64,000 bases of DNA from Bacillota bacterium (GCA_013540605.1 JABVCK010000009.1:226341-290340), one strand, 5' to 3'. Positions 28,960 to 52,409 are shown, counted from the first letter of the stretch. Numbers and translations: made by a program. Notes: generated from the letters alone by a model not told the origin.

Positions 28960-29835
28960 TTATCCCTGCTTGCCTGTTTTCTGTATCCTTTCCAGACTGA
29001 TTCCAAGCAGGTTTGACGATATTATAACCAATATAAGGGCAATTCCGGGCAGTATGCTTTCCCACCAGTAGAGCGTTAGGAACCGGTACCCTGCCGCCAC
29101 CAGCTGTCCCAGATCAACCGGGGACAGGTCCGAAAAAAAGTTTACCCCCAGGAAACTGAGGCTTGATGAAATGAGGAGAACCTCGCTGAACACGTCTGTA
29201 CTTAGGGCGAGTACCGTTGAAAAGAGGTTAGGCACTATATGCCTGACTGCTATGTATATATCTTCGCCGCCAATACTGATTGCCGACAGTACAAATTCAT
29301 ACTCCTTCAGTTTCAAAACCTCGCCCCTGACTACCCTGGCAACCGGAACCCAGTTTGTTATGCTGAGCACTAAAACGAAGGTGACTATGCCCGGAGAGAG
29401 GACCATAAGAAGAAACATCAGCATAGCAAGGTTCGAGAACGGCTGCACAATACTGCAAAAACTCATGACGAGGCTGTCCGCCCTGCTGCCGAAATATCCC
29501 GCCACCAGGCCCATAAGAGTTCCAACTATTATTATTACTATCATCGCAAGGGTAGCGATGATAAGCGTCGGTCTTAGCCCCCACAGGGTAAGGGCCAGCA
29601 GATCCAGGCCGACATGGTTCGTACCCATAGGATGCTTTAAAGAAGGAGGGGCCGCCGTCACCGTATAACCGGATTCGACGTTCCTCGCAGCTATATTACC
29701 CACCGCCAGTACGGTGGACCTCGCAGCCCTGATTTCATCATAGCTCAACGGATATATCACCGGGGCCAGAAGTCCGCCCAGCACCATGAGCCCAAGAACC
29801 AGCAGAGAGACAATGAACAGCCATCTGTTTTTCAC
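28960..29835 (-). CDS. DppC-like ABC transporter permease, solitary
   Basis: 291 residues of the DppC/OppC branch: N-terminal helix, an extracytoplasmic stretch ending in HPMGTNHVGLDLLALTLWG (the typical HPxGTD-x-x-GRD-like segment), five further helices, and the EAA loop EYEFVLSAISIGGEDIYIAVRHIVPNL that contacts an ATPase. The GTG start directly follows the TAG of the 862-residue gene with no gap, so translation is probably coupled. No DppB-type partner, binding protein or ATPase is nearby, which is unusual for this transporter class. It may use subunits encoded elsewhere or work with its fused-adaptor neighbour. Confidence 0.85.
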   Translation of the reverse strand: MKNRWLFIVSLLVLGLMVLGGLLAPVIYPLSYDEIRAARSTVLAVGNIAARNVESGYTVTAAPPSLKHPMGTNHVGLDLLALTLWGLRPTLIIATLAMIVIIIVGTLMGLVAGYFGSRADSLVMSFCSIVQPFSNLAMLMFLLMVLSPGIVTFVLVLSITNWVPVARVVRGEVLKLKEYEFVLSAISIGGEDIYIAVRHIVPNLFSTVLALSTDVFSEVLLISSSLSFLGVNFFSDLSPVDLGQLVAAGYRFLTLYWWESILPGIALILVIISSNLLGISLERIQKTGKQG

Positions 29836-32424
29836 CTAGAATCCCCCTCTGAAAGTGCTTAAGAATGATGCCATAAGGGCACAAACCGTGTCCAGATAAA
29901 GCCATCCCGCAAACAGGCAGCTAAACCTGTCAAGGCGTCCATTTCTCTCCGGCAAGGAAAACTGCACAATGGTGGCGACAGCAAGAAGGGACAGGGTCAC
30001 CGCATTGATGGCAAGAAGCGCCTGGTCGCTTACATTAGCCATCTCGCTGAATATGTCCTTGAACATTAATGCGTTAAAATATTTGACCGGAAGCACGGAT
30101 ATCAGAAAGGCCATGTAATACATCCTGTTTTTTCTTTTTTTGAACACTACAAGGTAGAGGAACAGGCAGAGCAGTAAAAGAGGCAGCAGGTTATACGGTA
30201 TAAAGAACAGTACGGCGCTCGCCATGCTGGTGAACAGGTTGAGAATATGGCCCAATACGCTTTTGCTGAAGTCGGCAATACGGTTTTCCGCTGCAAGCCT
30301 TTGGACAAGGGTAGGGTTGGTTGACATGAAAAGCAGATTGTATCTGTCTCCGTCAAGGTCTACCCAGGATACGATCCTTTTTTGGTCCGGTGAAATGATT
30401 ATACCGGGGAACTTCTGGGTATTTATTTTACCTACTATTGTCTTTGGCAGGGTCATGGAGGCACCGCTGCCGTCAATCTGCTGGTAATAGACGTCGCTGT
30501 TCAGCCTTTTTGAGGTGCGCTCCTGGTCTATCCAGACCGCATGGATGTTATTTGCTCCGTCAACCGCTGTGCTGAGGGCCCCCCTGAAGTTCTCATCCGG
30601 GGTTGTCAGGATTTCCTTTTCCCCGATCATATTACCCGCATAGTCGATCCTTTGCCTCGATATCTGGTAGAACTTATCAATCGGGTTATTGATTTCGGTC
30701 CAGAAAACGTACAAGGCCGAAGGAAGGAACTCAACGGAAAAGTTGTTTCTATAGGGAGATGGTATATAGTACATGAAAACCTCTTTTTTGGGCACAGTAA
30801 GCCTGCCCGCCTCATCAAGCGCAAGAAGATTGAAGTATGCATAGTCAGACTTCTTCTCCACCCAGGCGATAGTATATCCGTTGGAATTTTTTCCGCAGAA
30901 TACATCAAGGATACTGGGGGTAAGGTCAATAAACCCAAGGCTTACGCTTTCGTCAACCAGCACCGTCCCCGTATCAACTGCGAGCGCTATATCATTGCCC
31001 TGGATGCTGTAAATATAGAAGCCAAAATCCCTGGCAGTCTTTCGTATAACCGACAGAAAATTTTCCCCATCCTCAGAGGTGAAAACCGAAGGGTTTACGA
31101 GGTCAAATTCTTCAGATTGTATTTGCCGGGGCTGTGAGAACTGCATATTGTTGTCGATTATTGTGTATTCGATGATCCGCTGTGCCTTTTCCTCAGCTTC
31201 CCAGCATACAAAATAGGCTCCTTCCCTTGTTTTTAGGATTCTTGGATTGGACTTAATCCCCTGCCCACCGCTGAGCTTGGTTTTTCCAATTAATTCACCG
31301 GTCAGTGCGCTGTTCGCCGCAAGGAAGACCTCCGGAGGCGATTCACCGTTTCTATCGGTATAAACTGTCCATATCTGGTCTCCCGTCAGCCCGTATACGT
31401 ATGCCATATCCCTGTCGGGCAGAATGGAAGTGCTTGCGACATCTACTTCATGGCTCCAACGGTCCGGCATTATTTTCGCTTCAACCGGGAACCCAGGCAT
31501 GAACATGCGGTTTCTGTCAATAACCTTTACTGTGACCTCAACAAGGGCATTTGAACTAAGCCCCCTTTCATCAAGCTTAACCATAGGGGAAATGGCATCA
31601 ACCACGCCCCTGTAAGTTTCGTTCTTGGCAGCATCGGTGGTAATCTCAACCTCCTGGCCTATATCAACCCGGGCTATATCTTCAGCCTTGATGTTCAGTT
31701 TGATTTGAAGGTCGGAAAGGTCGGAGACGGCAAATGCCGGTTCCAATGGGTCTGTAAAGGTGCCGTTTTTTACATTTACCCGGGTTACTGTGCCGCCCGC
31801 GGGGCTTCTAATTATAGGGCTGTTCCGGCTAACCTTTTCCTCGGCTTCCCGGGCTCCCAGTTCCGCGAGCTTTATCCGGTTTTCCATGTTTTTGATTTCT
31901 ATGTATGTATATTTCAAATCATCCCTGGTGTTCTCAAGGGAAACGGATGCTTTTTTGAGTTCTGCTTCAGACAGCTCAAGGTCCCTGTCGGAAATTGCGC
32001 CCTGCCCGTACAGTGCCACCGTGTCCCCATATTCCTTTTCCGCCAATTGCAGGTCCAGTTCCGCCTGGGCTATTTCCCTCTCCTTTTCGGGTATGGTTTC
32101 CCTGAGTTTTTCCAGGTCCAGTTCCGCTTGCCTGAGGCTTACCTGCGCCTTCTCAAGTTCAATTGCAAAATCCCCTGATTCCACCAGTGCCAGGGGTTGA
32201 TCCTTCTGAACCCGGTCGCCCTCCCTTACGTTAACGCTTATCACCTTAACCGGGTTTTCCGTATACACTTCGACACTGTTTGCCTCTTCCAGCACACCTT
32301 CGGCTTCTATGTGCGCATCCTTATCCGATTTCCACATCAGAACGAGTTCCACAACCGATGAAAACACAAGCAGAACAAGCACAGACCATAGGATTGCCAT
32401 AAGGTACCTTTTAAGCTTCAGCAT
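29836..32424 (-). CDS. Membrane-fusion-protein / beta-propeller / membrane-domain fusion
   Basis: 862 residues. Residues 8-30 form a membrane anchor. Residues about 45-325 are an HlyD/MacA-type adaptor: lipoyl half (VREGDRVQKDQPLALVESG), paired coiled coil (about 86-200), second lipoyl half (IIRSPAGGTVTRVNVKNG) and beta-barrel (GQEVEITTDA). This part is clearly paralogous to the MacA-like protein at 46785-48047 (shared IRSP-x-G, AF-VSDLS-L, IGQ-VEITTDA). Residues about 385-700 hold repeats of the form PxIL...G-Y-V-W, suggesting a beta-propeller outside the cell. Residues about 730-856 contain four membrane helices. No ATPase motif is present. GGAGGTCAGCT precedes the ATG. I know of no family with this order; the role is unknown. 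Confidence 0.85.
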   Translation of the reverse strand: MLKLKRYLMAILWSVLVLLVFSSVVELVLMWKSDKDAHIEAEGVLEEANSVEVYTENPVKVISVNVREGDRVQKDQPLALVESGDFAIELEKAQVSLRQAELDLEKLRETIPEKEREIAQAELDLQLAEKEYGDTVALYGQGAISDRDLELSEAELKKASVSLENTRDDLKYTYIEIKNMENRIKLAELGAREAEEKVSRNSPIIRSPAGGTVTRVNVKNGTFTDPLEPAFAVSDLSDLQIKLNIKAEDIARVDIGQEVEITTDAAKNETYRGVVDAISPMVKLDERGLSSNALVEVTVKVIDRNRMFMPGFPVEAKIMPDRWSHEVDVASTSILPDRDMAYVYGLTGDQIWTVYTDRNGESPPEVFLAANSALTGELIGKTKLSGGQGIKSNPRILKTREGAYFVCWEAEEKAQRIIEYTIIDNNMQFSQPRQIQSEEFDLVNPSVFTSEDGENFLSVIRKTARDFGFYIYSIQGNDIALAVDTGTVLVDESVSLGFIDLTPSILDVFCGKNSNGYTIAWVEKKSDYAYFNLLALDEAGRLTVPKKEVFMYYIPSPYRNNFSVEFLPSALYVFWTEINNPIDKFYQISRQRIDYAGNMIGEKEILTTPDENFRGALSTAVDGANNIHAVWIDQERTSKRLNSDVYYQQIDGSGASMTLPKTIVGKINTQKFPGIIISPDQKRIVSWVDLDGDRYNLLFMSTNPTLVQRLAAENRIADFSKSVLGHILNLFTSMASAVLFFIPYNLLPLLLLCLFLYLVVFKKRKNRMYYMAFLISVLPVKYFNALMFKDIFSEMANVSDQALLAINAVTLSLLAVATIVQFSLPERNGRLDRFSCLFAGWLYLDTVCALMASFLSTFRGGF

Positions 32425-32623: not shown

Positions 32624-32701
32624 ATGGTTATTGCAATATAATGTATTATATAATATAAGAGAGGGTATACCCCCAGGCATTAAAAACAGGAGGTGTGGTG
32701 T

Positions 32702-33988
32702 ATGAGGCTTGAACTGGGCAAGATCAGAATCCGGAGCGCAGCATTTGGAAATGAAACATGCATTCGGGAAGGTAAGCTTTGGATTGACAAGGAGGGGTTA
32801 GTGGCGCTCCTGAAGGAAGACCCAAGGGTAAGGGAAGTTGAAGTTGATCTGGCAAAACCAGGGGACAAAACCAGGATAATACCCGTTAAGGATGTTATCC
32901 AGCCAAGGGTGAAAGTAACGGGCAAGGGACAGGGGTTTCCGGGGCTTACAACCCGTATGGAGACTGTGGGTGACGGAAGGACACACGCCCTGGAGAACGT
33001 AGCCGTAGTGACAACGGGCAGAATCGTCGGTTTTCAGGAAGGAATAATCGATATGTGGGGGCCGGGCGCGCAGTATACACCGTTCTCAAAGACAATCAAC
33101 GTGGTGGTCACCATAGAACCGGTGGAGGGATTGAAAGAACACCAGCATGAGGAATGCGTAAGGCTTGCCGGTTTGAAGGCCGGCTCCTATATCGGACAGG
33201 CGGCAAGGGAGATTGAACCGGATGAAATCCAGGTGTTCGAGCTTGGAACGATAACCGGAAACGCCAAGAAGTATCCGCAGCTGCCCAAGGTGGTCTATAT
33301 CGAGATGCTGATTTCCCAGGGACTCCTGCACGATACATATATCTACGGCGTGGATTCAAAGAAAATCCTTCCAACGCTGATACATCCTAATGAAATACTC
33401 GATGGGGCCGTTGTAAGTGGAAACTGTGTGGCAGCCTGCGACAAGATAACCACATTTCAGCACCTGAACAACTCTGTGGTGCTGGACCTATACAAGAGGC
33501 ACGGCAAGGACCTGAATTTCCTCGGAGTAATACTCACCAATGAGAATGTAACGCTTGACGGGAAACTCCGGGCCTGCGGTTATGCCACGAATATTGCAAA
33601 GATGCTGGGAGCCGATGGAGCGATTATTTCTGAGGAAGGATACGGCAACCCCGATACTGACCTTATGATGAACTGCCGTTTGCTGGAGGATGCGGGGATA
33701 AAAACTGTACTGATCACCGATGAATGCGCGGGACGGGATGGGAGTTCCCAATCCCTTGCCGACTGCGTCCAGCAGGCGAAGGCGATTGTAACCACCGGCA
33801 ACGTCAGTGCCCTTGTGGTTCTGCCCCCGGCGGAAAAGATAATTGGAAGGGCGGAGGCCATTGCAAACCTTGCCGGTGGGTATGACGGAAGCCTGGCAGC
33901 GGACGGGCGCATCACGTGCGAGCTTAATGCGATAATAGGCTCCACTTCAGAAATTGGTTACCACAATGTAACTACAAAGTTGTATTGA
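32702..33988 (+). CDS. Glycine/sarcosine/betaine reductase component B, alpha/beta proprotein
   Basis: 428 residues of the GrdE/GrdG/GrdI family. The proprotein is cut to give two subunits with a pyruvoyl group on the new N-terminus; the conserved processing site is seen as VVSGNCVAACDK, with Cys at residue 242, the same position described for GrdE. Component B binds the amine substrate as a Schiff base and hands a carboxymethyl group to selenoprotein A. The ATG at 32702 follows AGGAGGTGTGGTGT; an upstream in-frame GTG overlaps the ribosome binding site. Sequence alone does not say which of glycine, sarcosine or betaine is used, so no gene symbol is given. Confidence 0.9.
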   Translation: MRLELGKIRIRSAAFGNETCIREGKLWIDKEGLVALLKEDPRVREVEVDLAKPGDKTRIIPVKDVIQPRVKVTGKGQGFPGLTTRMETVGDGRTHALENVAVVTTGRIVGFQEGIIDMWGPGAQYTPFSKTINVVVTIEPVEGLKEHQHEECVRLAGLKAGSYIGQAAREIEPDEIQVFELGTITGNAKKYPQLPKVVYIEMLISQGLLHDTYIYGVDSKKILPTLIHPNEILDGAVVSGNCVAACDKITTFQHLNNSVVLDLYKRHGKDLNFLGVILTNENVTLDGKLRACGYATNIAKMLGADGAIISEEGYGNPDTDLMMNCRLLEDAGIKTVLITDECAGRDGSSQSLADCVQQAKAIVTTGNVSALVVLPPAEKIIGRAEAIANLAGGYDGSLAADGRITCELNAIIGSTSEIGYHNVTTKLY

Positions 33989-34005
33989 TGAGGAGGCGAC
34001 ATACT

Positions 34006-35319
34006 ATGACAGAAAAAAAGATAAGGGTAGTGCACTACCTCAACCAGTTTTTCGGCAACATAGGCGGTGAAGATAAAGCCGGGCAGCCTCCGATTTCCAA
34101 GGATGGAGCCGTTGGGCCGGCTATGGGATTGCAGCAGGCGATGGGCGATAAGGGAGAGGTTGTCGGTACTGTAATCTGCGGAGATAACTACTTCAACGAG
34201 AACACCGCAGAAGCAAAAAAACAGATACTGGAGCTGATAAGAAAATACTCTCCGGATGTGGTGGTTGCCGGTCCGGCCTTCAACGCCGGCAGATACGGCA
34301 TGGCCTGCGGCGAGACGGGGAAGGCGGTAGTCCAGGGTCTGGGCATACCGGTTGTTAGCGGTATGTATAATGAGAATCCCGGGGTGGATGCGAGCAAACT
34401 GGCAGTATATATTGTACCCACCGCTGATTCCGCAGCAGATATGAGGAATGCCCTGCCCAAGATGGCTGCCCTGGCCCTGAAGCTTGGCCGGGGGGAAGAC
34501 CTGGGAACTCCTCAGGAGGAGGGGTATATTCCGCAGGGCAGGAGGGTGACCGTCTTTTCGGACAGGATTGGCTCTACCAGAGCGGTGGAAATGCTGATGA
34601 AGCGGTTCAATGGAGAACCCTTTGAAACGGAACTCCCCATGCCGGAGTTTGATAGGGTGGAGCCGGCGCCGCCCGTGAAGGATATGACGAAGGCCAACAT
34701 CGCATTGGTGTGTACCGGAGGAATAATGCCGGCGGGCAACCCGGACAGGATAGAATCCGCAAGCGCTACAAAGTACGGCAGGTATTCGATTGCTGGTTTG
34801 GATGATTTCCTGCCGGAGGATTATGAGACTATTCACGGGGGATATGATCCGGTATACGCAAACCAGGATCCGGACAGAATCCTGCCCCTCGATGTGCTGA
34901 GAGACATGCAAAAGGAAGGGATAATCGGGAAGGTCCACGATTATTTCTATACAACCGTTGGAACCGGAACATCGGTGGCAAATTCGATGAGATTTGGGCA
35001 GGAAATTGGCAAGCAGCTCAAGGAGGAAGGGGTAGACGCTGTCATCCTCACGTCCACCTGAGGCACCTGTACCCGTTGCGGCGCAACGGTTGTGAAGGAA
35101 ATAGAAAGATACGGCATTCCAATAGTTCACCTGTGCACCATCATCCCAATTTCCCAGGCGGTCGGTGCAAACAGGATAGTACCGGGTGTCGCCATACCTT
35201 ACCCGCTGGGCAATCCGGATAAAACACCCGAGGAGGAAAAGGCCATCAGGCGAAAACTGGTTGAGACAGCCATTAAGGCGCTTCAGACTGAGGTAGAAAC
35301 GCAGACGGTATTTGAATAG
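34006..35319 (+). CDS. Selenocysteine-containing reductase component B, gamma subunit (GrdB/F/H)
   Basis: 437 residues when the in-frame TGA at 35059-35061 is read as selenocysteine (residue 352). The frame continues unbroken with the family-typical U-GTC-TRCGATVVKEIERYGIP, giving a U-x2-C-x2-C motif, and ends at 35319. N-terminal VVHYLNQFFGNIGGEDKAG and VVAGPAFNAGRYG are typical of the family. Stopping at the TGA would remove the catalytic residue and the last 85 amino acids. ATG 34006 follows GAGGAGGCGACATACT. It forms an operon with the alpha/beta gene. Selenoprotein A, component C and thioredoxin genes are not in the window. Confidence 0.93.
35059..35061 (+). other. Selenocysteine codon UGA
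   Basis: In-frame TGA within TCCACC-TGA-GGCACC, between the conserved VILTST and GTCTRCGA segments of the component B selenoprotein family. Confidence 0.93.
35073..35089 (+). promoter_or_regulatory. Candidate bacterial SECIS hairpin
   Basis: Seven-pair stem CCGTTGC / GCAACGG with loop GGC, starting 11 nt after the UGA. This is the distance range expected for a bacterial SECIS recognised by SelB. Confidence 0.7.
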
Positions 35320-42504: not shown

Positions 42505-43638
42505 ATGGTTACTATAGAAGAGGTTAAGGATAGTAACGGCCTGAAGAGGTTTGCTGAGTTCGCATGGTCGGTATACAGGGATGACCCTTATTGGGTTCCC
42601 CCCCTTAAGGGGGAAATATTAAGCACACTGGAGGGCAAGGACAACCCCCTTTTTATGAACGGGCCGCACGCCCTTTTTATTGCTTATAAGGATACGGAAG
42701 TTTCAGGAAGGATATGCGTAGGGATTAATGAGACATTGAACAACAAAAAAAATAAGGCAGAGGGCTATGTATGCATGTTCGAATGCTGTAGCGATTACAA
42801 TGTGGCATCGGCTTTATTTGAAAGGGCGGAGCAATGGCTTGGGGATAGGAACATAGACCTGGTGAAGGGACCGATATCTCCGACCAACGGTGACGATCTC
42901 AGAGGGCTGCTGGTGGAAGGCTTTAACGGCCCTCCGGTACTAATGAATTCATATAACCCGCGGTATTATAGAGATTTTTTTGAAAGGTACGGGTTTGTCA
43001 AGTATCTTGATCTGTACGCGTACTATTGGGACGTTAAAGATATTCCGGAGGAGAGATATCTCAAGGCTGTCGATTATGCGATGAAAAGGTACAGGTTCAG
43101 GGTAGATGCGCTTAGGCTTGATCAATTCGACAGGGAGATGGAAGATATTAAAACAGTAATGGATACTGCAATGCCGGAATGGGATGACCTCACTCCTCCA
43201 ACGCTTGAAGAAGTCAGGGCCATAGGGAGAAAGCTAAGACCCCTTGCCGATCCGGAACTGATATATATAGCCAGATCCGGTGGCTATCCCATAGGGTTTT
43301 CAATAGGACTGCCCGATTATAACCAGGTGCTTAAGCATTTAAACGGCAGGATGTTTCCCTTTGGTTTTCTAAAGTATCTGTGGCTCAAAAACAGGATCAC
43401 GGGTATGAGGGTCTTTGTTCTGTTTGTTATACCGGAATTCAGAAAAAAGGCGGTCAGCGGGACAATGTTTCTTAAGTACATACAAACGGCAAAGAAAAAG
43501 GGATACACCTATGTGGAGGGTTCCACCATAGGCGAAACAAATATGGATATGAGGAGGGACGCAGAGAGAGCAGGGGGGAAGCACTACAGGACGTACCGGA
43601 TTTATTCAAAGCCCGTTGGGCGCTGTGTCAGCTTCTAG
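42505..43638 (+). CDS. GNAT-fold acyltransferase-like protein
   Basis: 377 residues. It resembles the uncharacterised acyl-CoA N-acyltransferase-fold proteins that begin with [31 protein letters not shown] and contain [21 protein letters not shown] and [14 protein letters not shown]. The last third ([31 protein letters not shown]) is the GNAT cofactor region. It begins 11 bp after the transporter and may share its transcript. It converges on, and overlaps by 4 bp, the ABC ATPase gene. Substrate unknown. Confidence 0.78.
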
Positions 43639-44306
43639 CTTACATCCGATATCAGCCGTCCATCCCTGAAGACCAGGGTTCTTTTGGCGTGGCGGGCGAT
43701 ATCGCTCTCATGGGTTACAAGTATTATTGTAACCCCTTCCCTGTTCAGTTGTTCGAATATTTTCATGATCTCTTCCCCGGAGGCAGTATCCAGGTTTCCT
43801 GTGGGTTCATCGGCCAGGATTATTGCCGGGTTGTTCACAAGGGCCCTGGCTATGGCAACCCTCTGCTTTTGTCCGCCCGAAAGCTCGTTTGGCTTATGCT
43901 CCAGCCTGTCTTCCAGGCCAACCCGCCTTAACGCATCGATAGCCCTTTCCCTCCGCTCCCTCATGGGAAGGCCCGCATACATCATTGGCATCTCCACATT
44001 CTTCAGGGCGGTGGTCCTGGAAAGGAGGTTAAAGGCCTGAAAGACAAAGCCGATCTTTTTATTGCGGATTTCCGCCAGTTCATTGTCATTCAGGACGCTG
44101 ACATCAACCCCGTCCAGGATATAGCGGCCACCGGAGGGCCGGTCCAAACAGCCCAGTATGTTCATGAGGGTGGATTTACCGGAGCCGGAAGGTCCCATTA
44201 TTGCCACAAACTCTCCCTTTTTTATTTCAAAAGATACTTCTTCCAACGCAGTAACAGATACAGTACCGGTCTTATAAACCTTGTTCAGGTTCTCTACGTA
44301 CAGCAT
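43635..44306 (-). CDS. MacB-type ABC transporter ATPase (LolD/MacB N-terminal type)
   Basis: 223 residues from the ATG at 44306, preceded by AGGGGGAATAAT. Walker [10 protein letters not shown]-loop VFQAFNLL, signature [15 protein letters not shown], Walker [14 protein letters not shown]-loop VTHESD, all canonical for the MacB/LolD group. It energises the two permeases encoded upstream. Last gene of a four-gene efflux operon in the order adaptor, permease, permease, ATPase. Confidence 0.93.
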
Positions 44307-44316
44307 ATTATTCCCC

Positions 44317-45528
44317 CTATTCATACCTCAAAGCCTCAACCGGGTCCAGTTTGGAAGCCTGGCTGGCAGGATATACTCCGAATACCACTCCGATGCCTAT
44401 CGTTACTACAACCGAAACGGCAGTGGCACCTATTGAAATTACAAAGGGTAATTTAAGAAGCCTTACCACGGTGAAACCCACCGTGCTGCCCAGCAAAAGT
44501 CCCAGGATGCCTCCGATCAATGACAGTATCACGGATTCACATAGGAACTGGTACAATATCGATTTTCTTTTTGCGCCGAGGGCTTTTCTAATGCCAATCT
44601 CCCTGGTCCTTTCAGTAACGGATACAAGCATGATGTTCATTATGCCTATACCCCCAACCACCAGGGAAATTGCCGCAATGCCGCTTACTATCTTTGTAAC
44701 TATACCGAAAACGTTGGTAACCTCATCCATGTTGCTGTTGTAATCAAACAGCCTATATTTATCCGGCGCTTTATGCTTTCTTTCCAAAAACCCGATCAGC
44801 ATATCGCCGATGGTTTTCACATGGAAACTCTGGTCTATGGCGACGGAGATGCGTTCGAGATTGGGGTTGTACGTTATCGTTCGCATTATGGAAACCGGCG
44901 TATAGCCCTTCTTATCGTTTGTCTCATCAAACATCTTTGCCATGGTGGAGTCAAAAACCTTGGTAATGCCGATAATCATCAACTCAAGGGACCGGAACCC
45001 GGAGGAAACGGTCATTGTTTCGCCCAGGCAGTCAACAGTACCGAATATTTCACGGGCGGTCTTTTCATCGAGGACCAGCACGTTTCTCTTTGCCTTCTCA
45101 TCCTGGTCACTGACAAACCTTCCCTTCAGCAGTTCAACCTTTTCAATCTTCAGGAAGTCGGGAGTAACACCGTTAAGCAGGATGGAGTAGTTCTTATTGT
45201 TGCCCTTGACGGTCACGTATCTTGAGATCCTGGGGGATATCGCCTCAACCTGCCCCTGCATACCGGCTATGGTTTCAACGTCATCATAGGTTATATAATC
45301 CCTATAGACCGGTGGGTTTTTGGGGTCCCATTTCATGCTGATATCGGCCCTGTTGAGCCCGTACCTGCTGAATTCGGACTTTATATCTCCCTGGACTCCC
45401 AACCCCAGAGTGGTTATTATCATTACTGAGCTGATTCCTATGATTATCCCCAGCATGGTCAGGAAAGAACGCATCTTGTTCGCCCATATGGAAGAAAAGG
45501 ATACTATAACCGTTTCAAAGATATTCAT
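44317..45528 (-). CDS. MacB-like ABC permease, second copy
   Basis: 403 residues. MacB layout: first helix ([24 protein letters not shown]), large extracellular MacB_PCD domain (about 45-270), and three C-terminal helices with the [25 protein letters not shown] and [20 protein letters not shown] segments. It is clearly paralogous to the gene just upstream, so the pump is probably a heterodimer of the two. Starts 15 bp downstream of the first permease gene; the second of two nearby ATGs is preferred. Confidence 0.9.
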
Positions 45529-45543
45529 CAATATCACCAACCA

Positions 45544-46761
45544 CTATTCGTATCGTAACGCTACTATCGGGTCAAGTTTTGAAGCCTTGCTGGCAGGATA
45601 CACACCGAAAACCAGCCCGATGATCACCGAGAATACAAACGCAATAGCAATATCAACAATGGATATTATGGGGGGGAGCTTCATCAATAGCGATATCAGC
45701 CACGCAATTCCGATTCCCAGGAGTATGCCAAGGATACCTCCGCCCAGGGAAATTATACCGGCTTCGATAAGAAACTGAAATAATACTGCCCGCCTTTTTG
45801 CCCCTATTGCCTTTCTTATACCGATTTCTCTGGTCCTTTCGGTAACCGACACCAGCATTATGTTCATGATGCCAATTCCGCCCACTAGCAGGGCTATGGC
45901 AGCCACCAACGCCAGCACCGTGGTTATCATGCTCATCTGGGCGATTATTGTATCCAGCATTTGCTGTAGGTTGAACGAGCTATATTTCCCGGTAGTATGA
46001 TGCCTTCGCTCCAGCAGAGCGATAATCTTACCGCCTATTTCGTTGATACGCTCCTTTTCCTTTACTTTGATGCTTAAGGCATAGTACCGGTCTTCCCTAT
46101 AGATCTTCATTATTGTGGATATGGGGATATACGCTGCTGCCCTGCCCCCGTTGGTAAAGCTGTTCATAAAGTTGTCCTCATACTTTGTTACCCCCGCAAT
46201 GGTCAGCTCAACAGGTCCCCTCCATGTGTCCAGGGTAACGGGTTTCCCCAGAACATCAACGGTACCGAAAAGCTCCCGGGCATCCTTCTCGCTTATAATT
46301 ACAACATTTCTTTTTGCGAGCATATCTTCCTGGGACACGAATCTCCCGGAAAGCATCTTCACGTTGTCAATCTCCGCTCCAAACTCATTGACGCCGTATA
46401 GAACGATGTCCGAACTCCTGCCCCTGTTTGACAAAGTGAGCCAGTCTCCACCATATAGGGGTGAAACGGCTTCAATATCGCCATCACCGGCCATTCGCCC
46501 CACTACGCTGATGTCCTCCTCAGTCAGGTAATCCCTAAACTTTAGCTCCTCCCACTTGCTCCAATTCATTTGTATGATAAGCCTGTTTGTCCCGAATTGT
46601 TCAAAGGACTTCTCTATCTGCTTTTTACCTCCGTTTGCTATCGCTGATATGGAGACAACCGCAGCTATGCCTATAACAATGCCCAGCATTGTGAGAAAAG
46701 CCCGCATCTTGTTGGCTTTTATGGAAGCGATTGCAACCATGATGTTTTCAAATATGTTCAT
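45544..46761 (-). CDS. MacB-like ABC permease, first copy
   Basis: 405 residues with the same MacB layout as its neighbour: MRAFLTMLGIVIGIAAVVSISAI, the extracellular domain, then [47 protein letters not shown] and GVYPASKASKLDPIVALRYE. The C-terminal thirds of the two permeases are almost interchangeable, whereas the extracellular domains differ, which suits recent duplication followed by divergence of the substrate-facing parts. Starts 23 bp after the adaptor gene. Confidence 0.9.
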   Translation of the reverse strand: MNIFENIMVAIASIKANKMRAFLTMLGIVIGIAAVVSISAIANGGKKQIEKSFEQFGTNRLIIQMNWSKWEELKFRDYLTEEDISVVGRMAGDGDIEAVSPLYGGDWLTLSNRGRSSDIVLYGVNEFGAEIDNVKMLSGRFVSQEDMLAKRNVVIISEKDARELFGTVDVLGKPVTLDTWRGPVELTIAGVTKYEDNFMNSFTNGGRAAAYIPISTIMKIYREDRYYALSIKVKEKERINEIGGKIIALLERRHHTTGKYSSFNLQQMLDTIIAQMSMITTVLALVAAIALLVGGIGIMNIMLVSVTERTREIGIRKAIGAKRRAVLFQFLIEAGIISLGGGILGILLGIGIAWLISLLMKLPPIISIVDIAIAFVFSVIIGLVFGVYPASKASKLDPIVALRYE

Positions 46762-46784
46762 AGGAATCAACCCTTTTTATTTTC

Positions 46785-48047
46785 TCATTTCTGGCCGGTC
46801 TGGACCTTCATTCCATCCTTAAGGTCGGGAGGAGGAGTTAAAATGACCCTGTCCCCTTCATTGAGGCCTTTGGTCACTTCAACCGTAAAGTCGGATTCTA
46901 TTCCGGTCTCAATCTCCCTTTTCCTGGCTGTATTGTTTTCCACGATATAAACTACCTTTGCGCCATTATTCTCGGTGACAATTGCGTCAAAGGGAATAAC
47001 GAGGCAGTTGTCCTTGCTGTCGGCTATGATCCTGGATTTTGCTGAAAAGCCCGGTTTCAGCCCGGTGTCTTTTTCCGTTACGTCAATGGTCACTTCAACC
47101 GCTGTTTCGGTGCTCTGCCCGATCTGGCTGACCCTTGCAACGGGCGCTATTGCTTTTACATTGCCTTTAAAGGTCCTACCTACGACAGCATCGGTTGTTA
47201 TTTCAACATCCTGGCCTATTCTGACATTGGATATGTCATACTCGCTGATATTGACGTTAATTCGCAGGGAAGAAAGGTCGGAGACAACAAAGGCCGGCTG
47301 GGACGGGTTTGTAAGAACACCCTCCTTGGCATTGACAAGGGTAATGACTCCGGCAATCGGGCTTCTGATTTCAGGACCCATCTTTTCAACCTTCTTCTCG
47401 GCTTCAATGACGCTGAGCTCATAGAGAGCGACGTTGTTTTCAAGATTTTTTAGCTCCAGAGAAGAGGTTTCAAACGCGTTTTTCGTCTTTTCATAGGTTT
47501 CCCTGGTTTCTTCAAACCGTATCCTTTCCAGGTCCAACTCGTTTTGGGAGATGGCGCCTTCTTCAAAGAGCATTTCGGCATTGTTCAGGCTCCTTTCCGC
47601 ATGGGCAAAGGCCTGCTTGGAGTTGTTGAAGGCCCTTTCAGCTTCCGCCATACCGTAATCCCTGAATCTCTTAAGCTCGAGCCTGGCCTGTTCAAGGTTG
47701 ACCTTTGCCTTCGCCAGCTCAATCGTATACTCATCCCCTTCCAGGGTGGCAAGGAGCTGGTCCTTTTCAACCCAATCTCCCTCTTGCACCTCAATCTTTC
47801 TGACCAATTGAGGGCTTTGGGTAAATATTTCCTTCCGGGTTACTTCCTCGAGCACCCCGCTGGCAACTATCTGTACTTTGATACTCTCCCTTGAGACCTC
47901 TACCGTGCTTACCGGGATACCTTTACCCTTTGTACTAATGCTGCGGGCGAGAACGGAACCGGTCAGCAGTACCAGGACAAGACAGGCGATAACCACAATC
48001 ATTTGTTTTCGGCTCTTAAATTTTGGTAAAAAGCGAATACTTGCCAC
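46785..48047 (-). CDS. MacA-like efflux adaptor (membrane fusion protein)
   Basis: 420 residues. N-terminal anchor (IVVIACLVLVLLTGSVLA), lipoyl half (VQEGDWVEKDQLLATLEGDEY), coiled-coil hairpin (about 95-205), second lipoyl half (IRSPIAGVITLVNAKEG), beta-barrel (GQDVEITTDAVVG) and C-terminal domain (LNEGDRVILTPPPDLKDG). It links the MacB-type pump to the cell surface. Promoter and a possible operator lie 120-170 bp upstream. Its adaptor part is a clear paralogue of the first 325 residues of the fusion protein at 29836-32424. Confidence 0.92.
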   Translation of the reverse strand: MASIRFLPKFKSRKQMIVVIACLVLVLLTGSVLARSISTKGKGIPVSTVEVSRESIKVQIVASGVLEEVTRKEIFTQSPQLVRKIEVQEGDWVEKDQLLATLEGDEYTIELAKAKVNLEQARLELKRFRDYGMAEAERAFNNSKQAFAHAERSLNNAEMLFEEGAISQNELDLERIRFEETRETYEKTKNAFETSSLELKNLENNVALYELSVIEAEKKVEKMGPEIRSPIAGVITLVNAKEGVLTNPSQPAFVVSDLSSLRINVNISEYDISNVRIGQDVEITTDAVVGRTFKGNVKAIAPVARVSQIGQSTETAVEVTIDVTEKDTGLKPGFSAKSRIIADSKDNCLVIPFDAIVTENNGAKVVYIVENNTARKREIETGIESDFTVEVTKGLNEGDRVILTPPPDLKDGMKVQTGQK

Positions 48048-50435: not shown

Positions 50436-52409
50436 CCCATGTTTGACACTTGAACGGAAGAATAATCCTGTAGAGCCTTGGTATAAGAGACTTTACAGGA
50501 TTTTATGTTGGTGCGAAAAGTGCGTACTTTTTTATTTTTTCGTTTCTTTAAAAATTTTTTTCATCATATTTGTGCTAACAATCTGGTAATCAGTACGAAA
50601 ACCAAAAGCATCATGTAAAGCATCGGTAAAATCAGTTCTTGTGTAGGTTGGGACATAGCCTTCACATTTAGTATCATAGAATTCCATATTTCGAAGCCCG
50701 GATATAATCTCATGACAAGTGAACTCCTCATTAAGTCTCTTTTCAAGAAGCCTATAGATAATTAACGATATAAAGCAAGTGATAAAATGTGCTTCTATCC
50801 TGTCATCGTTGCTTAAATAAACAGGTCTTGCTTTGAATTCGCTTTTCATGATTCTAAAACATTCTTCGATTTCCCATCTTCTGTGATTCACCTTGATTAT
50901 TTCAGACACATCATCCTCAAGGTTTGTGCAAACCCCATAAAAACCATCAAAGGCTTCTTCCTTGTGGATTAGAGCAGAATTAATGCTGTATATATCGTTT
51001 TCTGCAACTTCCCCATCGGCAGTACAGCTTGTTTTGGTAATAAACCTTTTGTAATCGTTAGCATTGCATTTCTTGATTTTTGTCGGGTTGTTTTCTATTG
51101 CCTTTTGAGCTCTTTCTATTTGAGAATTTCTGATTTTACGCTGATAATCCCTGTATTTGATAGAATACGTTACAATCAATCTTTGTTCAAAACCATTTTC
51201 TTTAATCCAACGTTCCTTGAAAAAGACTTTTGCTCGTATTTTTTCTTTATCTTCAGGATTAGCTTTATCTATCATTTCATCAAGTTTAGAAATATCATAT
51301 GTTTTATCACTACCAGAAAGTTTCCAGCCATCTGGAGCAAGAGCCCATCTTTTAAGATGTTCTTTTAATTTTTTGATAGACTGTGTTGTAATAAACGCCC
51401 GGCCATCTTTGTCGTTAAACCTTCGATTATCTTCTGAAGCTAACCCGGCATCAGTACAGACGATGAATTTAGACAGCTCAAAATCAGATATAATTTTCTT
51501 TTCTAAGGGCTTTAAAGTCAACTGTTCATTCATATTCCCCCTGTTAATGCTAAAAGCCAGAGGAATGCCGTCTCCATCCATAAATAAACCCATTTGAACG
51601 ATTGGATTAGGTTTGTGATCTTTAGAAGGGCCATATTGCTTATTGCCATCCTCCTGTTCAATTTCGAAAAAGTAATTGGTGCAATCATAGTAAAGTATAC
51701 CGGTATTTCTTTTTGAAACTTTCAGGCTGTTTTCATACAAAGAGGACTGAATAAAATCAGTTTCCTTGGCAAGAACTTCAAGGGCTCTGTAGATTTGATG
51801 CAGATCAAAATTCGGCTGTTCTAAAAATTTTTTAGAAAGCTCACAGGTTGCAAGTTTGGAAGAAGGGAAGATCACTCTGCCGTAAATCAGTCTTGATAGA
51901 ATTGAATCTAAATCAAAATCAAATTTATACTTTTGTGATATTTCCTTGCAAATCTTGTGAAGTCCGAGTTCATGGTATATTTTTTGAAGAAATAGATAAC
52001 CACCGTTAAAGGAGCGCTGTTCGTTTTTTGAAATAATTTTTGATTGCTCATAAGGAACAAGTATTTTCCTTGTTTGTTCCTTTTCTTTCTCATTTAATTC
52101 TTTAATATATTCTTTAGCCCACTCGTATGGATCTGCTCCATTAAGTTTTTCTCTGAGTTCAGCTTCGGTTCCAAGTTTTTCTACAGTAATGGTACGTTCT
52201 TTTTTATCTATATAAACAGTTTTTGTAACATAAAATGAAGCTGAATTTTTTGAACGTGATACTTTTAATCTCATAAGCATTCCTCCAAATTACTTATATT
52301 ATACTATATCACGCAATATCACGCAATATGAAAGTGGAAAAATTGACAAAAAAATAAGCCTATTTCAAGGCGTTCAGGGATTTTTTCTTTATTCAACTGT
52401 CAAACTCCC
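50436..52409 (-). mobile_element. IS1634-type insertion sequence, intact
   Basis: 1974 bp with imperfect terminal inverted repeats: left CCCATGTTTGACACTTGAA, right (reverse complement) CGGGAGTTTGACAGTTGAA, sharing GTTTGACA and TTGAA. One full-length transposase gene fills it, and 33-bp direct repeats flank it. Members of the IS1634 family are known for long target duplications of variable length. The element is more AT-rich than its neighbours. It separates asnB from the glnA leader. Confidence 0.88.
50532..52274 (-). CDS. IS1634-family transposase
   Basis: 580 residues, full length. DDE-type catalytic residues are apparent in YYDCTNYFFEIEQ (first Asp), FIVCTDAGLASEDNRRF (second Asp) and the RRWEIEECFRIMKSEFKARPVY stretch (Glu, Y-(2)-R-(3)-E-(6)-K-like region). 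The N-terminal 100 residues are charged and typical of this family. No frameshift or stop is seen, so the element may be active. ATG 52274 is preferred because GGAGGA directly abuts the ATG at 52280. Confidence 0.9.
   Translation of the reverse strand: MRLKVSRSKNSASFYVTKTVYIDKKERTITVEKLGTEAELREKLNGADPYEWAKEYIKELNEKEKEQTRKILVPYEQSKIISKNEQRSFNGGYLFLQKIYHELGLHKICKEISQKYKFDFDLDSILSRLIYGRVIFPSSKLATCELSKKFLEQPNFDLHQIYRALEVLAKETDFIQSSLYENSLKVSKRNTGILYYDCTNYFFEIEQEDGNKQYGPSKDHKPNPIVQMGLFMDGDGIPLAFSINRGNMNEQLTLKPLEKKIISDFELSKFIVCTDAGLASEDNRRFNDKDGRAFITTQSIKKLKEHLKRWALAPDGWKLSGSDKTYDISKLDEMIDKANPEDKEKIRAKVFFKERWIKENGFEQRLIVTYSIKYRDYQRKIRNSQIERAQKAIENNPTKIKKCNANDYKRFITKTSCTADGEVAENDIYSINSALIHKEEAFDGFYGVCTNLEDDVSEIIKVNHRRWEIEECFRIMKSEFKARPVYLSNDDRIEAHFITCFISLIIYRLLEKRLNEEFTCHEIISGLRNMEFYDTKCEGYVPTYTRTDFTDALHDAFGFRTDYQIVSTNMMKKIFKETKK

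Follow-up and report, generated by a model that had tools for sequence, protein, structure and literature searches.

The window, the whole 64,000-nucleotide stretch of Bacillota DNA analysed here, contains a two-gene unit in which an efflux-type adaptor, fused to a seven-bladed beta-propeller and a four-helix membrane module, is translationally coupled to a solitary OppC/DppC-type ABC permease. Judged by sequence, residues 321-862 of the fused protein are a member of a previously unannotated family, named here PROP-4TM, whose genes adjoin or lie within Opp-type operons at several unrelated places. We propose, with about an even chance of being right, that the protein serves as a propeller-bearing accessory subunit of an Opp-type permease, for which OppDF, and perhaps OppB, would be borrowed. 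The family, its link with Opp permeases and its fusion to an adaptor appear to be undescribed in the libraries and papers searched.

Organization of the gene pair

The 862-residue gene, encoding adaptor, propeller and four membrane helices, occupies positions 29836-32424 on the minus strand as a single intact open frame with an ATG start, preceded by a good ribosome site (GGGGAGG). This domain order, given in the preliminary description, was confirmed by Pfam/NCBIfam matches, an AlphaFold2 model and hydropathy. The stop codon (TAG, 29836-29838) abuts the GTG of the permease gene, which starts at 29835 with 0 nt between, and the permease Shine-Dalgarno sequence, AGAGGGGG, is located at 29843-29850, 7 nt before the GTG and inside the 862-residue gene. 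The stop/start junction (29836-29850, minus strand), defined from the sequence, thus has the abutting arrangement first described and represents translational coupling. Since the two genes share one reading frame, stop-codon readthrough into a single chain of 862+291 residues was also considered; it is disfavoured, with the C-terminus of the 862-residue protein predicted outside and the OppC N-terminus inside.

An assembly join of two genes, foreseen in the preliminary description as a possible source of the long frame, would fit the presence of the adaptor-propeller fusion in one genome only. We consider such an artefact very unlikely, to the point of being negligible, because the fusion point coincides exactly with an invariant W-S motif and GC3 is uniform over the modules (0.55-0.60 throughout adaptor, propeller, membrane helices and permease); furthermore, the join is in frame at this domain boundary and is situated within a 334-kb contig.

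Other features were observed in the window. Divergent from the 862-residue gene, at 32693-35061 and onward, are sarcosine/glycine reductase component B genes, GrdG-like (32693-33988) and GrdF/GrdB-like (33985-35061); the latter frame (...VILTST-TGA-GTCTRCGAT...) stops at a TGA in the selenocysteine position and reads on. An IS1634-family transposase is encoded at 50532-52280.

The adaptor module and its local paralogue

The adaptor module comprises residues 1-320 (31465..32424, minus strand), as delimited by Pfam, NCBIfam and alignment to a local MacA-like protein as far as the W-S motif. It matches HlyD_D23 at residues 48-287 (5e-18), HlyD_3 at residues 205-302 (5.7e-15) and RND_mfp (6e-27), and presents the elements of an HlyD/MacA adaptor: a membrane anchor (~8-30), two lipoyl/barrel-sandwich halves (~45-85 and ~205-235), an alpha-hairpin (~85-200) and a beta-barrel (~235-318), with limits set by analogy with MacA. 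The C-terminal membrane-proximal domain of usual adaptors is absent from the alignment to the local protein, which extends across the beta-barrel and weakens at the start of the propeller W-S; the propeller therefore replaces this domain.

The MacA-like protein (46785..48047, minus strand), assigned by its identity and family matches, is the adaptor of a complete MacAB/YknXYZ-like exporter located at 43635-48047, which also encodes two FtsX/MacB-type permeases and an ATPase and has no adjacent YknW-like gene. Situated 15 kb away, it is the best paralogue of the fused adaptor in the genome (39-41% identical; 39% over residues 36-338, E 1.7e-62) and also tops the matches to it among 60 related genomes, in agreement with the earlier suggestion that the adaptor was built from a local paralogue. 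No other genome searched carries an adaptor-propeller fusion. In the operon itself, neither an FtsX/MacB-type permease nor an ATPase of a MacAB/YknWXYZ pump is encoded, and the partner is of the OppC type.

The propeller, the membrane module and the PROP-4TM family

Modelling was confined to residues 321-862 and the permease, because full-length mixed alignments of adaptor and propeller misaligned. The AlphaFold2 model of residues 321-862 contains 28 strands (7 x 4) with pLDDT mostly 85-94, and the propeller (residues 321-703; 30316..31464, minus strand) was delimited from this model, Foldseek, alignment A3 and the family profile. The propeller-like region first described is thus present and has seven blades, with a start at ~321 and not at 385. 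In Foldseek it resembles propeller lyases and sialidases (E 1e-9 to 1e-7). The four membrane helices (residues 704-862; 29839..30315, minus strand) were likewise supported by hydropathy and by the model, where confidence is low (pLDDT 35-68). Following the positive-inside rule, the positively charged loops KKRKNR and PERNGRLDR are predicted to be cytoplasmic, which would place the propeller and the C-terminus outside.

Residues 323-862 match, over the whole stretch, a free-standing homologue (L068) from another class of the phylum (E 6e-22), and profile searches seeded from this match found further members across the phylum. These share an N-terminal W-S, a ~380-residue propeller and four C-terminal helices, and the window protein has the invariant W-S, the seven-bladed propeller and the four helices. 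When the window protein was left out of the profile, its residues 322-854 still scored 102 bits, against 7.7 bits for the best of 200 shuffles. Additionally, HHalign of the four-helix part, f217 members against the remainder including the window row, gave 98.9%. The same method indicated that this part is not homologous to OppB or OppC. The view of the propeller-4TM region as a degenerate OppB was rejected, with HHalign at 0.4% (98.6% in the control of OppC against OppB) and with PROP-4TM genes occurring alongside OppB at five loci (L190, L192, L196, L132 and L133).

When 391 genomes of the organism's own class were searched with the single sequence, no PROP-4TM member was recovered, and profile matches within that class were rejected as soluble propellers beside other, unrelated genes. 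Sialidase-like propellers of a separate family, apparently cytosolic and without membrane helices (L084-L105, and G000:C35:109539 in the organism's own genome), are widespread in this class, usually beside one recurring small gene.

PROP-4TM stays below the cut-off of every Pfam and NCBIfam model; weak, partial propeller matches were obtained (BNR_4, in three members, and PDIAV_lipo), and since these libraries give no usable name, members are likely annotated as "hypothetical". No PDB chain matches the profile, which leaves the family without a solved homologue. Scans of the genome-contig and viral-contig collections found no relatives, the plasmid scan returned one weak partial match, and none of the phage-defence families matched. 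A description of PROP-4TM was not found in the literature searched, although such searches cannot prove its absence. Three members (L068, L077 and L079) present, within their N-terminal ~100 residues, a small extra domain between membrane anchor and propeller, a position that is taken by the adaptor in the window protein.

Genomic neighbourhoods of PROP-4TM genes

The neighbourhood survey, which left out L189 and some weaker profile matches, revealed a recurrent association with Opp-type genes. Complete systems were observed at L192 (SBP-SBP-OppB-OppC-PROP-OppF-OppD), L196 (OppC-PROP-OppD-OppF-SBP-OppB) and L132 (SBP-OppB-OppC-OppD-OppF-PROP). L190 has the order SBP-SBP-OppB-OppC-PROP, L133 encodes OppC-OppB-PROP without an ATPase, and at L130 and L131 the PROP gene is directly downstream of SBP-B-C-D-F. 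Pairs of OppC and PROP without OppB, binding protein (SBP) or OppD/F were identified at L181 and L182, both in G619, at L185 in G445, and in the window, where the gene order is reversed. The G619 genome consists of one contig and encodes just two OppB genes, both far from its pairs. Short stop/start overlaps are the usual mark of translational coupling between partners; they measure 4-14 nt at L133, L181, L182, L185, L190 and L192, and 0 nt in the window.

About 7 of 20 distinct locus types lie beside Opp permease or cassette genes, a hand count with orthologues collapsed that describes a strong pattern and is not a tested statistic. Many members sit elsewhere, so the linkage is common but not universal: they were found in the polA region (L080, L134-L138), at L068, L078, L179, L180, L183 and L184, and in an ABC-2 exporter operon (L079). 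Some of these positions are stable: at L080, L134, L135, L137 and L138 the gene lies around those for DNA polymerase I and transketolase, and at L179 and L183 it directly follows a pair of M16-like peptidase genes, named by eye. Near the OppC+PROP pair of L181 (9223-13666 and 13964-17122), an apparent SPASM/radical-SAM peptide maturase fragment was noted by eye, so that this is possibly a RiPP locus.

These arrangements bear on two ideas from the preliminary description. The adaptor and propeller had been suggested to replace the binding protein; as a general role of the propeller this was rejected, as the propeller genes of L190, L192, L196 and L132 adjoin intact binding-protein genes. It had also been foreseen that homologues might always accompany DppB/DppD/DppF, with the window copy a separated piece. 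Other PROP-4TM homologues do occur in full Opp operons, and pairs without OppB, binding protein or OppD/F recur (two copies in G619, one in G445), which contradicts the first part. Because members recur both in complete operons and in coupled OppC+PROP pairs, the window pair is in all likelihood not a broken cassette fragment. A relic of a decaying Opp operon that lost its other genes would be compatible with the lack of a dedicated OppB, ATPase or binding protein, with a long branch in the OppC tree and with the window pair standing alone among its close relatives. We nevertheless regard this origin as quite improbable, since both frames are intact, with strong ribosome sites and an EAA loop, and similar pairs arise independently in G619, on its single contig, and in G445.

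The neighbourhoods also weigh on whether the unit could be an exporter. In that case adaptor, propeller and Opp-type permease would together expel or secrete a small amine or peptide, the adaptor arm would act in the outward direction as usual, and a binding protein would not be required. The kinship of the fused adaptor to that of the MacAB/YknXYZ-like exporter points in this direction, as do the ABC-2 exporter operon of L079 and an ABC exporter half directly upstream of the L181 pair. This exporter half could be a partner of that pair, which is therefore solitary only regarding Opp partners. Moreover, SapBCDF, of the Dpp family, is a putrescine exporter (PMC12772348). Against export, the family is found in operons with importer binding proteins (L190, L192, L196 and L132), and the adaptor has no membrane-proximal domain, which normally contacts the exporter. 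On balance, we consider export unlikely.

The solitary permease and its missing partners

The permease gene (28960..29835, minus strand) encodes 291 residues; Pfam, NCBIfam, a search of PDB sequences and the fold all mark its product as OppC/DppC-like. It matches BPD_transp_1 (PF00528, 1e-13) and Opp4C (1e-49), with a weak match to OppC_N. Its model, which resembles the OppC/DppC subunits of OppBCDF and DppBCDF, superposes on E. coli OppC (8z21_B) with a TM score of 0.81-0.85 (E 9e-12) and presents a coupling helix at residues 180-187. In the OppC tree, the solitary permeases appear as fast-evolving long branches, and the tree does not settle their placement or common origin. The novelty proposed in the preliminary description goes too far for the permease, a divergent representative of a known kind; the propeller-4TM family and its Opp link are what appears undescribed.

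The EAA loop and coupling helix (residues 167-203; 29227..29337, minus strand), recognised by identity to the OppC consensus, are intact as described. The identity of this segment to the canonical OppC consensus is 46%, against 27% elsewhere in the protein (one-sided Fisher p = 0.02), and it is kept in 5/5 permeases compared (the window, L181, L182, L185 and L133), at 46-59% against 27-28% elsewhere. In canonical OppCs, too, no other part is as well conserved, and the pattern therefore indicates coupling that is not relaxed, rather than strengthened. Because the ATPase-coupling loop is kept, the permease most likely works with OppD/OppF-type ATPases.

The absence of dedicated partners held among the window ORFs inspected: OppB, OppD/F and a binding protein, which complete an Opp/Dpp importer, are not encoded with the permease at the locus. 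The genome contains four OppC and three OppB genes, and each of the three OppB genes belongs to another, complete cassette that also encodes a binding protein and OppD/F-type ATPases. The window permease may be energised by an ATPase encoded elsewhere. ATPase sharing is established for MsmX, a multitask ATPase serving incomplete sugar importers (PMC7658222).

A pair that recurs without OppB, binding protein or OppD/F, with a permease sequence divergent outside the EAA loop, might instead be a sensor or regulator, in which a ligand from outside the cell would bind to the propeller, and the permease-like protein would modulate the resident Opp transporters or signal while moving no substrate. 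The complete OppC fold with its EAA loop and coupling helix argues against this role, and no obvious kinase, regulator or signalling gene accompanies the pairs at L182, L185 or in the window. We therefore find a sensory role improbable.

Proposed assembly

In the accessory-subunit reading, which we prefer, both genes would encode one membrane assembly. The 862-residue protein would be an outside-facing accessory subunit, with its four-helix module docking on the Opp/Dpp-type permease and its propeller positioned over the permease mouth, where it may capture ligand, gate the channel or scaffold it. The MacA-like arm, with the propeller in place of the membrane-proximal domain, might form an oligomeric collar or a wall-spanning extension. 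The OppD/OppF-type ATPases, and possibly OppB, would be borrowed from at least one of the three cassettes that the genome encodes in full at other loci. Transport would presumably be inward, and the ligand may be peptide-like. A bolder formulation, which we hold to be possible but doubtful, is that PROP-4TM with a single OppC constitutes a recurrent, unrecognised ABC assembly without OppB or binding protein and with a borrowed ATPase, equipped here with an efflux-type adaptor arm as an importer/adaptor hybrid.

Peptide ABC importers are regarded as complete with five parts (A, B, C, D and F), and PROP-4TM inside several of their operons would add a sixth. The OppC+PROP pairs would lead one to ask what completes a single OppC and what powers it. 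In the window fusion, a propeller of the kind associated with peptide permeases has taken the place of the membrane-proximal domain of an efflux adaptor.

Comparison with known systems

With the type I peptide importers OppBCDF and DppBCDF, the unit shares the permease fold, EAA loop and coupling helix (8z21, 8z1w), and relatives of the propeller protein reside in such operons. In contrast to them, the window locus has no OppB, OppD/F or binding protein, and its permease is coupled to an additional subunit, the adaptor-fused propeller-4TM protein. As in MacA/YknX/HlyD-type adaptors, an anchor, a barrel-sandwich, a hairpin and a beta-barrel are present, whereas the propeller and four membrane helices replace the membrane-proximal domain and the operon lacks a MacB/FtsX partner.

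In the four-component exporter YknWXYZ of Bacillus, the polytopic YknW, of the Yip1 family, aids the assembly of adaptor and ABC transporter (PMC4887032). The combination of an ABC permease, an adaptor and an extra polytopic membrane protein is common to both; however, the YknWXYZ permease is FtsX/MacB-like with its own ATPase, and its extra protein is Yip1, neither propeller-4TM nor fused to the adaptor. MsmX-served sugar importers similarly have permease genes without a dedicated ATPase (PMC7658222), but they possess two permeases and a binding protein, and for the window pair we infer the sharing of an ATPase. Finally, sialidase/PL24-PL25 lyase-like and BNR propellers resemble the window propeller in fold alone (Foldseek E 1e-9 to 1e-7), while the latter differs from sialidases and PL24-PL25 lyases in being membrane-anchored and has ~10% identity to them.
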